A stretch of DNA of 64,000 nucleotides from Trogon surrucura. Taxonomy: Eukaryota; Chordata; Aves; Trogoniformes; Trogonidae. The first letter of the stretch is position 1, and every line of letters starts with the position of its first letter. The stretch is taken from NCBI GenBank assembly GCA_020746105.1, contig CM036642.1, forward strand, positions 2,139,501-2,203,500. The letters are read 5' to 3'. Made by a program: the position numbers and the translations under genes. The notes beneath the pieces are model-generated. The model did not search any database, was not told the origin of the DNA, and saw nothing but the letters and a program-made list of their open reading frames with translations. Shown piece by piece: positions 53,311 through 64,000 of this stretch.

Positions 53311-56300
53311 CTCTGTCGTGAATATTAAGTGCCCGAGGAGTCGCTAGCGGCGGGATTAGGCAGGGCGGGTTGCCAACCCCTCTGCGCGTCCCCCAGGGGA
53401 GTGAGAAGAAAAGGTGACGAGGCGAGGGTTAGGAACCGAGGGACGAACTGTGGCCGAGGGAGGAAGAGGGAAAGGGGGAGGAGAGAGAGGAATAGCGTTA
53501 AGGATGCTGGATGGAAAAGAGATGGGTCGCCATGGCAGGAGAAGGATGCTCCGACGGAGCAGACCCGCCCTTCACCTCCTTGTCTCCCCCCAACCTCGGC
53601 ACTCGGCGGGGAAGACGTCACATCGCGGTCAGCTCCGGTTCTTAAGTCAGTTGTTGGTGGCGGAGCCACAGGGAAAAGGACGGCAAAGCCAAATCCCGAC
53701 GACGTGCCCGGGTCGCGGGGGTAAATCAGGCGCCGGCCGGAGCCGACGGCACCGTTTCCTTCCAACTCTTTGCTCAAATGGCTTCAGCCCCTGCATTCCT
53801 CACTGCAGGGGAAAAAAAATGCCTCTTCCTTTCCCATCTTCTCTTGGTCGAGTCAAGATAATAATAGTCTTTTTCTGATCCCCTGAACTTTCCCATCTGC
53901 CTGGTAAAACAATGGCAATTTTTTTTCCTCCCGGTCTTTCTCTCTCTCTGTCTTCCTCTCTTTTATTTTTATCCTCCTCCAGTAGAATCTAAAGCCAGAG
54001 CAGTGCCGTTAGCCCGTGGGTTTTTCTCCTTCCTGTGATACACTGCTGGTTTCTTAAATGACTTTCTCCCTGCAATGCCTCTCACCGCCCTCCCCGGACC
54101 CGTAGCGAGGCCGGTACCTTCGCAGGAGGTCCGAAGTAGGGACGAGGGGCTCGAGCGCGGTCGCAGAAATAAAGAGGGGCTATAGATGATGGAGAGGCGA
54201 CAGCTGGCTGTCAGGGACGGAGGGGTCGGGGCGTCCCGTGGGAAGGAAAACGTTTGCAGAAAGCGGGCTCGCCGGGATCCGCGGGGAGAAGGGAAAGTTT
54301 CCCAGCTCCCTGTGACTTCTCGCCGGGGAGGGATTGAGCCGGCACTTGACGCTTCTTTTTTCCTTCTAATGCCATTATGCCGCTTGCCTCCCATCCTCGG
54401 GATATTTTCTTAATGCGGCTGAAATGCAGCTTAACGGAGGCTACAGCCGTTTTAACACTTGGGCTTGCAAGTGCTTCTTAAGAGCTCGTCCCGTGGAGAA
54501 AGCCTTTGGCTTTTCATTTACCATCCGAGGGACCCCGCGGTCTCGGTCGCCGGCGGCAGGTTTTCAGAGGAATCTTGGAGGAAAGCGGGGGCACCTCAGG
54601 TGGATGTGACCTTTTTTAAGGGCGGTTGGTAAGATCTCCAGCAAGTAGTGTTGTATCTTAGTGTTCTCCTGAGGGATCACCTCCTCACCAAGCCTCGTAC
54701 ACCGTGGCTTCTCTTGGTGGCTGCCAGAAATGAGATGGGCTCCGGTAGAGATGGGATTGTGAAGCAAGGAGCAGTGCTCCTGCAAAACAGGGCGCGTGTG
54801 TCCGAGCGGTTTTCTCCAGCAGCATCCGTCGTCTCGGTGTCAATTGTCGCGAGTTATTTAAGCGCCACACGCCCTACCCCGTCTGCCAGGCAGCCCCCTC
54901 CCCTTAGCTCGCCGCCCCTCCGGAGGAACTCGCCGGCAGAGGCCGAGCGCCAAACAACGGGACAAATTAAATCAGAAGCCCAGCTCGGGCACCCAGGGGG
55001 AAAACGCGCATCGGCTTTGACTTATTGCGCGGCGCACGCTTACAAGAGAGAAGCGGCGGCTTTTGTCACCGCGAGGGGCCATGAAAAATGAATTAGGGCC
55101 GCCGCTGGGAGAGGGCGCGCGGGAGAATCTTTCATTCCGGCGACGCCGTCCTCTCTCACCTTGCGAGCGGCGACGGGGAAAAAATCACGAGGAGGAAGGT
55201 AGAAAGGAAAGAAAGGGGAGAGGACTTTGTTTGTGGGGCAGAGCGTTAGGGTCCAGCTCGAGAGAGCGAGCACAGGAGGACTAGTGGCTCATTTGCCCTG
55301 AGGGCAAAGACCTTTTCCTGGGGCTCAGGGTCTTTAGTGGCGCCCCGGGAGGATGCCAAGGAGGGTCGACACCGGTTTGCCGAGCCGCCCCCGAGCCAGC
55401 TGGGCTCTGCCTCGCGTCAAAACCAAAAGGGCTCGTTCTTGCTTTGACTCGTTTGCTCCCGAGTTCGACTGTCATTCAAGGGGAGTTGGTCCCTGAGTTG
55501 TTTTGTTGCTTTAAATATTAATTTCCATAATCCTCCTGTTTCCCAAGGAGCTACTCATTGCAAACAAAGAGGTTTTTAAGGCTCCCCTTTTATTCCTGGT
55601 AACAAATAGGCCGTCCGAGGTGCGTCAACATCCCAGTGGCGAACCAAGCGCGGGTACCGAACCGCGTTTCGGGAGGGGACGGGGGGAGAAGCCTCCCCGC
55701 GGGATCCCGGGGACCATGGCGGCATCTCCCAGAGACGGAGACCGGGAACCCCCCGGGCAGCCGACCTTTTGCGCGGAGGCATCTCCGCCATGCCTTTTTG
55801 GAGATGGAAGATTTGAGAGCCGAAGGCCGGGGAGCACAATAGAAGATAGACTGCTTGTATCTTATTGTCTGGAGAATAGATGGGCTGCAGGCTCGCGGAG
55901 AATAGGAGCTGCCACTCAAGTGGCTTTAATAGAACAGGCGGCAGATAGATTTCAATAAAAGAAATGAGTCTAAATATTGTTAGCGCAGAAGAGAGGCAAA
56001 GGGAAAAAGATCTTGTTTGACGAGGCACAGTGGGGAAACTTTCAAGGACCTGTAAGCGAAAAAGTCCTCACAATGGGGCTCTAATGGGCTCATCCGTGTT
56101 GCCCCCGGCGTGGGGCCGCAGGGAATCCCACTCGGGGTGGGGCTCCGCTTCGGCGCAGGTTACGGAGCGGATGGTGAGTGTTGGACGGAGGCTGGGAGCG
56201 CCGGCTGAGCAGGCATCGCGCCTGCATCTGGAGGGTCTCCCCAAGTCTTGCATCCCGGTGATGAACAAGGGAGGTCATGTGTGCCCGTGTTGATGTTAAA

Positions 56301-58960: not shown

Positions 58961-59414
58961 AAAGGGATTTATTTTTTTCCCCCCTGCTCCTCTTTTAATT
59001 TTTTTTGCAGCGCACGCTGCTGCAGGCCTGCGTTTTGAGCGTCTCCAGAAGGTGTCGATTCGGGGGTAACACCCACCTTAGCGTAAAAACCAACGAACTC
59101 GGGGCGGGGCGGTTGTCAGTGAGCTACCAGGGCGGGAATTTCGGCAGGGGCGGCTCCTTATTTCTGTCATGTGGGGAGAGATGATCTGAAAGCATCCATC
59201 AGTAGGACGTGGGTGCCGGCGGGTACCTCCCATCCCCTCAATTTATACACATTTGTCAGGAGCGAGGCGCGTACGGTCGACCGGCGGAGCGCGACGGGTC
59301 GTGACGGCGGCGGCCGGGCGGGAAGCGAGAGCGGGACGAGTCCCCCGGGGACCGCGGAGCCACTCTCGGCCTCCGTGCCATCGGCGCTCGCTCCCCGAAA
59401 CAGCTGTCCGGAGC

Positions 59415-59640
59415 TAATTTATTTTCTAATGCTGCAGCGATGTTCATTTATAAATTACACTGGTAATTCGGAGCTATTATTAATTTCAGATGGTGTAGGG
59501 CAAGCCTAATTAAAATATGACACCAATTGCCACACATATGTACCAGGCCCTGCCGTTTAAAATTTATAGGAATATTAAGTGTGACACCGGTCTCGGAGAC
59601 ACTTCGCGCCATGATTACAGCGTCTCGGCCGCGGGAGATC
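59415..59640. promoter_or_regulatory. AT-rich candidate enhancer close to the Ig2 exon
   Basis: GCTAATTTATTTTCTAATGC, CATTTATAAATTACACTGG, CTATTATTAATTTCAG, CCTAATTAAAATATGACACC and ACACATATGTACC, ending 200 bp before the exon at 59846. Could act as an enhancer or in splicing. Confidence 0.35.
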
Positions 59641-59845
59641 CGATGGGGAGATGTAAACTGAAGGAAGGGAGAAGCAATTCCCATTCCTAGGCTGTCAAAA
59701 CCTCTTTCACAGAGGTCAGGGGATCACGGAGCCCTTTCTGTCAGGGCTTTTCTTGGGACGGAGGGGTTGGGATGTCACGGGGCGGGCGTCCTCGGGTTCA
59801 TCGTGGTCCCCTCTCGCTCAGTGCCGTCTCCCCTTGCCCCCGCAG

Positions 59846-59980
59846 CCGTGGGTTTCATCAGCGAGGACGAGTACCTGGAGATCACGGGCATCACGCGGGA
59901 GCAGTCGGGCGAGTACGAGTGCAGCGCCTCCAACGACGTGGCGGCGCCCGTCGTGCAGCGAGTCAAAGTCACCGTCAACT
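59846..59980 (+). CDS. NTM: Neurotrimin exon, second half of Ig domain 2
   Basis: This 135-nt exon completes Ig domain 2. It reads (A)[19 protein letters not shown], then [17 protein letters not shown] and QRVKVTVN. The F-strand Cys in YEC is at 59920. The acceptor is CTTGCCCCCGCAG and the donor AACT|GTGAGT; both sides are phase 1. The last base joins AC of the next exon to make the Tyr of NYPPY, the Ig2-Ig3 hinge. The SEDEYLEI...SGEYECSA wording is diagnostic of IgLONs, and [13 protein letters not shown] points to NTM over OPCML (APDVRKVKITVN, as remembered). The exon lies 11.9 kb after its partner but only 659 bp before the next one. Confidence 0.97.
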
Positions 59981-60639
59981 GTGAGTATCGCCTGGGGACC
60001 GCTGGGGATGGTGTCGGGGCAGCGGGAATCGAGGCCGACGCAGCCCTCCGGCCCCAGAGCGGAGACGGGCGGCGGCAGTTTGTCAAGCAGGTGGTGTTTT
60101 GCTTTTTTCTCTCCTTTTTGAGCTCTTTCTAATTATTTCCACCACCACCTCCTCCTCAGCTGTCTCCATCAACCTGGGTTTTCCGCCCGTGGTGAGATGC
60201 TGTGCTGATAACCTCCAGGGAGAGGAGAGAAGTGAGCAGTGAATGGGATTTTTTTTTTTTTCCTCTAAGAAAGAAAGAAAGAGCGAGCAAGGAGCACCAC
60301 TGATGCTCAGAGGCAGAGGGGAAGGAGCCTCCTCAAGTCCTCTCTGGCCACCCTTTCAGCTGCTCGGGGTTAGCTCGAGGGCAGCCGTGGCTCATGAGAG
60401 GCGGGGGGCTCCGGTCTCTGGAGAAGCCCATGCCCAGCTGCAGCGTGGGGTCCCCGGAGAGCCCAAAACCCCCTGGATGGCCTTTCCAGGGAGACAGGAG
60501 CTAGGCACGAGCTTAGAGATGCTTTTGACCCCTTCCTAACTGTGTGGCCACAAAAGGGCGTTTGAGGAGCAAGGGGAGAGAGCGTAGGATGCCCCGAGGC
60601 TGCCGGACGCCCAGTCGAGACCCCCGTTTTTCCCCACAG
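59981..60639 (+). other. NTM: NTM short intron, Ig2 to Ig3
   Basis: This 659-bp intron runs from GTGAGT to CCCCACAG. It contains a T13 run followed by an AAAG-type simple stretch (60249-60290). Nothing else is recognised in it. Confidence 0.93.
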
Positions 60640-60760
60640 ACCCCCCGTACATCTCGGACGCGAAGAGCACCGGGGTGCCGGTGGGGCAGAAGGGCATCCT
60701 GCTGTGCGAAGCCTCCGCCGTGCCCTCCGCTGACTTCCAGTGGTACAAAGATGACAAGCG
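60640..60760 (+). CDS. NTM: Neurotrimin exon, first half of Ig domain 3
   Basis: This 121-nt exon encodes the first half of the third Ig domain: (Y)[18 protein letters not shown], then [20 protein letters not shown]. The B-strand Cys is at 60705 and the core Trp at 60741. The acceptor is TTTTTCCCCACAG and the donor GACAAGCG|GTAAGAG. It enters in phase 1 and leaves in phase 2; the split codon CG|G gives Arg across the 250-bp intron. Reading through the donor would give an immediate stop (AAG CGG TAA), so retention of this short intron would truncate the protein inside Ig3. Family wording ([24 protein letters not shown]) fits neurotrimin. Confidence 0.97.
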
Positions 60761-61010
60761 GTAAGAGCTTGGGGGGAACACATCGAAAACCGACGAGGAG
60801 CGGTTAAGGGGCTGGATTTTTGCGGGATCCTCTGTAAGACAGGGTGAGCCCAAGAGGACACGGCGAGTCTCAGCCGTCAGAGCCCGGCCGAGGCGATAAC
60901 GGGGCAACCGACCCCTCCCGGGAGGAATTAGCAAAGGGAGGGGTGGAGGGAGGGAAACGGGAGTTTGGGGCAGCTCCCCGTGACGCTCTTTGCTTTTGAC
61001 TTGTTGCCAG
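60761..61010 (+). other. NTM: NTM 250-bp intron inside Ig3
   Basis: This 250-bp intron, from GTAAGAG to TTGTTGCCAG, splits an Arg codon in phase 2. It is GC-rich with no visible repeat. Its retention would stop translation at the first intronic codon. Confidence 0.95.
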
Positions 61011-61162
61011 GCTGGCTGAAGGGCAGAAAGGCCTGAAAGTGGAGAACAAAGCCTTCTTCTCCAGACTGACTTTCTTCAACGTCTCCGAGCAGGACTATGG
61101 CAACTACACCTGCGTCGCCTCCAACCAGCTAGGAAACACCAACGCCAGCATGATCCTCTACG
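61011..61162 (+). CDS. NTM: Neurotrimin exon, second half of Ig domain 3
   Basis: This 152-nt exon completes Ig3: [19 protein letters not shown], then [19 protein letters not shown] and [12 protein letters not shown]. The F-strand Cys (YTC) is at 61111. Three N-glycosylation sequons are visible: NVS (61078), NYT (61102) and NAS (61141), which is typical of the heavily glycosylated IgLON Ig3. The acceptor is CTTGTTGCCAG and the donor CTACG|GTGAGT. The exit phase is 1, leaving a single G that must be completed by whichever C-terminal exon is used. Retention of the following intron would add only Gly-Glu and stop (TAG at 61167-61169). Confidence 0.97.
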
Positions 61163-62994
61163 GTGAGTAGCGCCGCGGCCGAACGGCGAGAGGCCAGTTT
61201 TGTCTTTCGGGGGAGAGGCGTGTTTGGGGCTCATCCTTTTCGCACCAGTGAGCCCGGGGAAAGCGCGAAAGCCTCCGAGGGTAGTGAATTGCTTGGGTTG
61301 TGAGCGCCCTGCCGCAGAGAGGGGTTCGTTGCTGCGTTCGGGGTCTGCCGTCTGCGCAAAGTTAGGACTTGGCTGTCAGCATCTTCGTGCTCTGATGACT
61401 ACCTCAGAGAGGTGTTGTTGCAAGGCATCCTGCCGCGTCAGACAGCGGGAGGCGAGACAGGGCTCCGGGTCGTCGCGTAACGTGTCCCAGTCCAGTCCCG
61501 GGATAAATGGTCCCCGAGGCTCTACAGCTTTCCCTGTCGGGTTTTCTGCCTCTGCCATGCAGAGGTGTTCTTAGCGATGGAGCCGGAAGGAGCAGAGGGC
61601 GTGGAGGAGGATCAACTTTGTCCCCTTGTCAAAGAAGCAGCGCAACTGTCTTTCCGCTCGGGCAGTTGAGTTCTCCCTGGCCCGGGAACGGTGTAACGGC
61701 AACCGGCCTCCATCCTCCAACACCATAGCGTGTCGCTGTGTCATTTTTCTCTTCTGTCCTTACCTATTTGGGAGTAGTTGAGCCCACTGGTCCAAGCGAA
61801 GCTTCGCGTCCCCGGCGTGCCTCACCTTTCTTTCAGTGCCGGGTGCTGTCGGTCCGGAGGCGAGCGGAGGGGGAGAGGAGTCTTCCTCATCCCCGGATCC
61901 CTCGGCGGCCAGGCCAGGAGCTCATCTTGGATGTTAATGAGCCTAACGACCCTTAGTTCCCCAAAAATGTCCACGGTGTCAGTGATGAATGGTAACGGCC
62001 TTACCTGCCTGTTGCCTAGGGACTATCTCTGTTTCCCAGCAGCCCGCTCGGTTCATCGGGATCCCCAGCAACCCCATTTTTTAGGGCGCCAGACCCTCGC
62101 GGCAGCACAGACCCGCTCGCGGCCGGTTCCGTGCCGAGCACCCGAGCTGCTCGTACACCCTTAGCTCAGACATTATTGGCTCCCTAAGGGTTTATGAGGT
62201 TCAAATCCTAATAAGCGTGGCACCTCGCTTTGCCCTCCTTTAATGGAGGTAGAAAAAGGCTCCCAAAGGTCAAGATGACTTCTGTCTGCTGATGGCTCCA
62301 TGAGAGCCGCTTGTTCGTTGGTCCGTACGCCACGAGCGATGTGTCGTAGAGCACGTGCCACAGTGGCAGAGACATCTACATGTCTTTTATGACCCCTCCC
62401 TCAGCGTTATCGGTCTTGCTATGCGTTCCACCGGGGAATGAAAGGGGAGTCCTACGATACTCCTAATTTCCATAAAGCCATGTCCATGTAAAGCTCCTTT
62501 CCATCTTTATTCGTGGAGTTTGCTCAGCGGGGTGACGGCTCCCCAGGCCACAGACCCGAGGGGACCATGCCACAGAGAGGTCACCTGTAATTAGTAGCCA
62601 CGCCCTGAGCCCTGCACAGCTACCGTCGAGCATCCTCGGGCCGAGCTCCGTGGTCCCTAAGCAACGGGCACTTGGGAGATTAAAGTGTCTTTAATTATCG
62701 TAATGAAAGATGACAGGGATGTCGTAGGTGCTTTCTGATTCGCGTATGGGGACAGCAAACTTGGCTGCACACCCCTAGGTTCAGGGCTGGTCTGGGCCAG
62801 TGCCTCGATCTTCCCAAACAGGCAAATGCTCGTCCCAGAGGAGAGGGGCACAATTTGGGCTGCACAAGCCCCCTCGGTCCCTTTCCTACTCACATTCCCC
62901 GGCCCAGCGTCGAGATCGGGCCGAGCGAAACCCCTCGAGCCCGTGCTTTCCACTGCCCTTTTGCCTAAACTTTCCCTTGTTCTTTAATTTTTAG
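61163..62994 (+). other. NTM: NTM intron before the microexon
   Basis: This 1.8-kb intron lies between the Ig3 exon and the 33-nt microexon. It contains a weak exon-like stretch at 61913-61956 (see findings). No repeat is recognised. The rest is GC-rich unique sequence. Confidence 0.85.
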
Positions 62995-63027
62995 AAGAGA
63001 CAACTACCGCCCTGACACCCTGGAAAG
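62995..63027 (+). CDS. NTM: Neurotrimin 33-nt alternative microexon (EETTTALTPWK)
   Basis: This is a 33-nt microexon preceded by a T-rich tract (CTTGTTCTTTAATTTTTAG) and followed by AAAG|GTCAGT. It is phase 1 at both ends, so it can be included or skipped without shifting the frame. The split G of the Ig3 exon plus AA gives Glu, and the insert reads EETTTALTPWK. Human NTM isoforms carry a very similar insert (TTALTPWK) between Ig3 and the GPI-signal segment, and I recall the same residues in chicken CEPU-1. The peptide lengthens the juxtamembrane stalk and is rich in Thr, so it may be O-glycosylated (inference). Exon identity is based on remembered homologues plus splice signals seen here. 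Confidence 0.9.
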
Positions 63028-64000
63028 GTCAGTAATCCGGGGGCCTCCCCGACACCAGCGCTCCCCCCGCCCCATTTCCCTGTCCGGCTACCGCCCCGGC
63101 GAGAGCCCCGGCTCCCTCCACCTCAACCTCCCGCCCCAACACCCGCTCCTGCAGGTTTAGCGCCGCACCAGGGCTTTTTGCTGCTCTCTGGCCACCCTTC
63201 TGTCCTGTCTTTTGCGTCCTGTGCCCTCTGCATGCCTAGTTCTCCGCTCCCTCCCCATAGCTGGCCCGCCGACGGGGACATCTCCGGGGGCTAGTTTCCC
63301 AGTGTTGCTGTGTAGATGAGTTTTGGGCAGGTTATTCGTTCTCTGAGCTGCTTTCCGTGCCTTTATTCCGCGCTGTGGGAGGGGAAAGGAGGCGATCTCT
63401 CTCTGTGGTGGTATCTTCTCATCCGGCTGGCTCAGCGCTGTCTTGATTTTGGAGCTCTGTACCTGGTTGGACTTCATTTGCGATTCATAGAGCGACCAAC
63501 CTGTGGGGCAGCTCGGACACACAGGGAGGCGGCACGGAGATTATGGTATCTCCATCTCTGCCAGTGCGTACTGCGGGGCGGTCAAGGCACCAGGCGTCCC
63601 AGTGTCAAGGGTTTTTCCCGGCTTTGGGGTGTTTTGGTGAAAGCCAATGGATCGAATGCCCTCCCCATCCTTGCCCACAGTGAGAGCTCTGAGCTCCTCG
63701 GCTGTAGCAGTTTCTAAAGGCGTGGAGGGACTCGGTTCTTCTTCACCACCCTCCTCCTGCCATCTCATTCTTCTCTAGACAGTCAGGCCCGCGGGCAGAG
63801 CGCGTCGTCAGCCTTGAGCTCCTCCAGGGAGGGGGCGAAGCACCGAGTCCCGCCGGCAGGCTCTCTGCTGGGCAGGCAGGCGGTTGTCGTGCCCCCCCAC
63901 CCCAAGGAGGACAAGTAGGGATGTCACTAGGGCGAGCAGAGCGTGGGCAGCGTCGGGCGAAAGCTCTCCCCTGCCTCGCGAGGTGGAAACTCGGGCAAAA
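63028..64000 (+). other. NTM: NTM 3' alternative-splicing region, GPI exon not reached
   Basis: Downstream of the microexon I looked for the usual last exon (GPGAV..., a hydrophobic GPI-attachment signal and stop) and did not find it, so it should lie beyond the window. The only exon-like segment is the candidate secreted terminus at 63779-63918. The stretch 63028-63778 is otherwise featureless and GC-rich. Confidence 0.75.
63779..63918 (+). CDS. NTM: Candidate alternative 3' exon giving a secreted neurotrimin
   Basis: A long pyrimidine tract (63738-63776) ends in CTCTAG at 63778. The following DNA is open in exactly the phase needed after either the Ig3 exon or the microexon: G|AC gives Asp, then 45 codons from SQARGQSASSALSSSREG to PPHPKEDK and TAG at 63916. 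The tail is rich in Ser, Arg, Pro and Gly, and ends in charged residues. It lacks the small-residue omega site and hydrophobic C-terminus of a GPI signal, so the product would be secreted. A secreted chicken isoform, CEPU-Se, made by an alternative insert exon between Ig3 and the GPI signal, has been reported; this may be that exon, but I cannot compare sequences. A chance open frame of this length in GC-rich DNA is possible. The exon's 3' end is not determined. Confidence 0.42.

Follow-up and report, generated by a model that had tools for sequence, protein, structure and literature searches.

A segment in the last intron of the neurotrimin gene (NTM / CEPU-1), at 63779-63918, is judged by us, with somewhat better than even confidence, to be an alternative coding end of the gene that gives a secreted form of the protein, through splicing that we infer from the sequence. 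In some transcripts, the exon end at 61162 or 63027 would be joined to 63779 instead of the exon at 64244 that carries the GPI signal. The last exon would then gain 465 nt on its 5' side, would read DSQARG...KEDK and would stop at 63918, so that the GPI-coding part would fall in the 3'UTR, with the poly(A) site unchanged and perhaps given by the ATTAAA at 66024. As nonsense-mediated decay is not expected for a stop codon in the last exon, such a transcript should escape it. The predicted protein would retain three Ig domains, lose the GPI signal and be secreted, and could bind IgLON partners in soluble form, like CEPU-Se of the chick.

The whole stretch of DNA analysed (64,000 nt; hereafter the window) lies at C29:2139501-2203500 of an assembly of 1.166 Gb in 164 contigs. 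By its sequence the gene is neurotrimin, as the initial annotation had named it, since Neurotrimin structures were the best solved-structure matches of both Ig3 exons. The second Ig3 exon matched 6dlf and 6u7n (80.8 bits) best and OPCML (5uv6, 74.1 bits) and NEGR1 (6u6t, 51.1 bits) more weakly; for the first Ig3 exon the 6u7n match reached 70.2 bits and that of OPCML 59.2 bits. Open stretches with the IgLON motifs of the Ig1, Ig2 and Ig3 exons follow each other in exon order, with Ig1 at ~32100, Ig2 at ~47800 and ~59850, and then Ig3. No relative of the second Ig3 exon was found in viral or prokaryote contigs. The coordinates of all features are collected in the table.

Features of the 3' part of NTM (window numbering; a slash marks a splice junction)
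Feature	Position	Strand	Remarks
NTM exon, Ig domain 3, first half	60640..60760	+	sequence; 6dlf 70.3 bits
NTM exon (Ig3b), Ig domain 3, second half	61011..61162	+	phase-1 end, TAC G/gtgagt; 6dlf 81 bits
NTM 33-nt mini-exon, EETTTALTPWKG	62995..63027	+	phase 1 to phase 1; splice sites
Candidate polypyrimidine tract and AG	63734..63778	+	49 nt AG-free; four YCAY
Candidate alternative coding segment	63779..63918	+	46 codons and TAG; hydrophilic, no GPI signal
Weak possible donor	63915..63920	+	caa/GTAGGG, score 5.6; overlaps TAG
NTM GPI-signal exon, GPGAVHDGNNGAWRRGGCVWLLALPLAQLARQF-stop	64244-64344	+	acceptor 13.34, phase 1

Splice sites were scored with weight matrices of approximate vertebrate values, and the scores serve only for relative ranking. 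The Ig3b exon has an acceptor at 61011 (8.53) and a donor at 61163 (10.0), and the mini-exon an acceptor at 62995 (9.99) and a donor at 63028 (8.4) with a frame that fits the GPI exon. We take the mini-exon to be genuine on the basis of these splice sites and of known NTM isoforms. About 200 nt 3' of it, at 63229-63234, stands the sole copy of TGCATG, an RBFOX motif, between Ig3b and the GPI exon; its position would favour inclusion of the mini-exon. The GPI exon begins 244 bases beyond the end of the window, and its GPI signal was judged by hydropathy rather than with a predictor.

The candidate segment is located in the last NTM intron and starts 465 bases before the GPI exon; its acceptor has the context ...CCATCTCATTCTTCTCTAG/ACAGTCAG with the AG at 63777-63778. 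Joined to an upstream exon, which contributes a phase-1 G at 61162 or 63027, the segment has a split first codon (G/AC) and a frame that reads DSQARGQSASSALSSSREGAKHRVPPAGSLLGRQAVVVPPHPKEDK and closes with TAG at 63916-63918. The initial annotation had described exactly this site, and its polypyrimidine tract, AG, phase, 46 open codons and stop all proved correct to the base, as did the two upstream junctions, both of which are in phase 1. Likewise, the tail that it had called hydrophilic and free of a GPI signal has a mean hydropathy of -0.82 and a best 11-residue window of 1.13, versus 2.05 in the GPI tail, and conceptual splicing together with hydropathy gives a product that retains the Ig domains and has no GPI signal. 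The tail had no Pfam match and no convincing relative among the first 20 matches listed for the loci compared (best non-self E 0.018, with internal stops). A 301-base stretch around the segment matched one place in the genome, the window itself, in a search that skips common words. A known non-coding RNA was dropped as an explanation, the two Rfam matches over 59000-64000 being far below their gathering scores, and a tandem repeat was dropped as well, as Tandem Repeats Finder returned no row at 61000-64000.

The form of the transcript follows from the poly(A) signals. None of the ten hexamers looked for occurs between 63779 and 64243, and the first of the two commonest hexamers downstream is the ATTAAA mentioned above; rarer variants are present at 64570, 65123, 65429, 65449, 65812, 65822 and 65828. 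A self-standing terminal exon was therefore rejected, as there is no hexamer from the TAG to the GPI exon, and the segment is better read as the product of an alternative 3' splice site. The alternative terminal exon that had been proposed is thus partly supported, by its phase, coding-like frame and GPI-less tail, but is probably no independent unit: the candidate is better seen as the last exon lengthened on its 5' side.

The end of the segment also admits a cassette exon of 136 nt (63779-63914) that uses the donor at 63915 and is spliced on to 64244, by which the GPI exon would be frameshifted into a longer, basic and GPI-less tail. This we regard as quite unlikely. Among the GTs from 63786 to 64243, the one at 63915 scores second-best, and the shifted frame is open for 171 residues, counted from the first codon of the candidate, with its stop in the last exon. 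The donor at 63915, however, falls well short of the two real donors in score (5.6 versus 10.0 and 8.4). Splicing at the slightly better GT at 64165 (6.6) would place a junction ~250 nt downstream of the TAG, so that decay would be expected.

Even less probable, and in our view very unlikely, is that 63779 plays no part and that the secreted form comes from sequence retained or read through after 61162 (GE-stop) or 63027 (GQ-stop). Both read-throughs end within two codons and remove the GPI signal, and therefore a secreted form is possible in this way without the site at 63779. Since no acceptor is needed, though, this would not account for the GC pattern at 63779 or for the strength of its acceptor.

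The main competitor of an alternative coding end is chance, namely a cryptic acceptor in a pyrimidine-rich and GC-rich intron in which stops are rare, so that it opens a frame and is either unused or a source of splicing noise; we hold this to be possible, although less probable than the alternative end. Acceptors that score 9.9 or more and open 46 codons or more numbered 11 in 59.9 kb on the same strand, or 0.57 per 3.08 kb, and 19 in 73.9 kb antisense, or 0.80 per 3.08 kb. As that many are expected, the acceptor and open frame as first described do not go beyond chance. Of 214 AGs in the interval from Ig3b to the GPI exon, moreover, a fraction of 0.327 opens into at least 46 codons, and other strong local acceptors also open frames, such as 61837 (33 codons), 63155 (46) and 63681 (32). 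Against chance stands the rank of the acceptor: with a score of 9.92 it is third of the 216 AGs in this interval, outranked by the two real acceptors at 64244 and 62995 only, so that it tops the 214 that remain, and it exceeds the real acceptor at 61011. The acceptor at 63155 (7.16) provides a useful internal control, as its segment (63155-63294) likewise has exactly 46 phase-1 codons; the tail is partly hydrophobic, and with a GC difference of 0.08 it shows little coding-like pattern.

The GC content at the three codon positions is the second point against chance. The candidate frame has GC1/GC2/GC3 of 0.70/0.59/0.87 with a GC difference of 0.228; the pattern resembles that of exons of this gene region (Ig3b 0.46/0.34/0.80; GPI exon 0.82/0.58/0.91), and by it the frame looks coding. 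Of the open windows of 46 codons in four neighbouring stretches, which overlap each other, 0.31%, 0.54%, 0.95% and 0% reached 0.228; among ten further cryptic frames listed nearby, each of at least 30 codons, none did so, the highest being 0.08. Of the objects with an acceptor of at least 7 and 36-80 codons, one of four in these introns, the candidate, had a GC difference of at least 0.2, as against 0 of 50 when the last intron of OPCML and three other stretches of NTM were taken together; the OPCML intron (10.8 kb) contains eight acceptor-frame objects, all below a GC difference of 0.2. The GC difference of the candidate frame, 0.228, is followed by lower values downstream when measured without overlap: 0.065 for 63919-63990 and 0.08 for 63919-64056. 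A scan with overlapping sliding windows showed a GC periodicity that crosses the TAG without a sharp edge and has faded by ~64000.

Over ~304 kb of C29, 24 of 1196 acceptor-plus-frame objects reached 0.228 (10 of 476 with an acceptor of at least 9). Among GC-matched objects the candidate's difference was reached by 11 of 202, which speaks for chance (5 of 84 with an acceptor of at least 9). For the phase-1 set the corresponding counts were 3 of 257, and 2 of 34 after GC matching; restricted to acceptors of at least 9, they were 2 of 96 and 1 of 14. The order GC2<GC1<GC3 was present in 12 of the 24 objects, and eight of these twelve (seven of eleven distinct stretches) had a known protein or family as match, namely two NTM exons, an OPCML Ig exon, a C1q domain, an olfactory receptor, UBASH3B and an Fz domain, the last of which accounts for two overlapping rows. 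The remaining four had no Pfam match; one of them (L026:429) resembles MFRP. From the twelve objects that do not have this order a single one was checked, and it is an Ig domain by Pfam (L011). A GC pattern of this kind is thus rare and, in the right order, goes mostly with known proteins, and together with the rank of the acceptor it suggests that the candidate is probably more than chance.

A codon log-likelihood model, built with amino-acid frequencies and a variable GC3, gave the candidate -2.5, an unremarkable value that fits chance: 88 of 257 comparison objects were equal or above, and 61 of 257 were as high with as large a margin over the other frames. The model was set aside as a coding test, since it has little power (the real GPI exon scored -5.1) and did not single out the candidate. 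On the minus strand, within the intron that separates the two Ig2 exons, another acceptor-plus-frame object was seen at 55248, with 40 codons, coding-like GC and no Pfam match.

The last 45 nt before the candidate acceptor contain four YCAY, at 63743, 63746, 63760 and 63765, and as many were found before 3 of 532 strong acceptors. YCAY is the binding motif of Nova. The finding was made post hoc as one of five patterns examined, and the cluster is therefore only a lead. If it were of consequence, the Nova-type YCAY cluster before the upstream of the two acceptors, which lie 465 nt apart, could make the choice between them a switch, regulated in neurons, that sets NTM as anchored or secreted, and tissues that are free of the regulator, such as the oviduct, would use the upstream acceptor freely and bring NTM into egg white; we consider this scenario unlikely.

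The initial annotation had also appealed to a reported secreted isoform of the chick, CEPU-Se. Such an isoform does exist in print by title, as the reference lists of two papers (PMC10606101, PMC3402391) carry Lodge et al. 2001, whose title describes CEPU-Se as a secreted chick isoform of CEPU-1, and CEPU-1 is given as the chick name of NTM in a further paper (PMC5554145). In a proteomic study, CEPU-Se is named among low-abundance proteins of egg white (PMC5557595), and a review, in the passage that cites Lodge et al. 2001 among others, states that soluble and membrane-bound NTM alike are involved in outgrowth (PMC10606101). Neither the CEPU-Se exon nor its tail was found in the available text of the literature searched for a secreted or alternative end of NTM. 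The likeness to CEPU-Se lies in the gene, which is the same, and in the GPI-less NTM product that is predicted for the candidate; by this analogy, the product is probably a secreted NTM that resembles CEPU-Se, and the candidate may be the CEPU-Se exon itself. In that case it would already be known in chick; otherwise it would add one more secreted form.

Two other systems invite comparison. Shedding of IgLONs by ADAM10, as outlined in the review (PMC10606101), likewise produces soluble IgLON, but does so by proteolysis after anchoring, with no splicing and no new tail. The mouse LSAMP and NEGR1 genes also have alternative 3' ends; these isoforms, however, carry alternative predicted GPI sites, whereas the candidate would have none (PMC5288359). 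In the same study, all mouse IgLON transcripts examined have a putative, predicted GPI site, which counts against the candidate (PMC5288359).

If an alternative coding end at 63779 is true, one splice choice would set the anchored or secreted state of a neural adhesion protein, and a secreted NTM isoform, perhaps CEPU-Se of the chick, would gain a defined genomic exon. The switch would rest on one AG, which makes it testable by mutation, and the CEPU-Se reported in egg white would have a simple source.

Beyond the window, OPCML was found as a separate gene on the opposite strand, with a match at C29:2221587-2221736 and a GPI exon that starts at C29:2210817 (acceptor score 11.68). NTM and OPCML are arranged tail to tail, from 64344 to 71217 in window numbering (L002, L003), and their 3'UTRs converge, the ATTAAA of NTM being ~5.2 kb from the OPCML stop codon at 71217 on the other strand.
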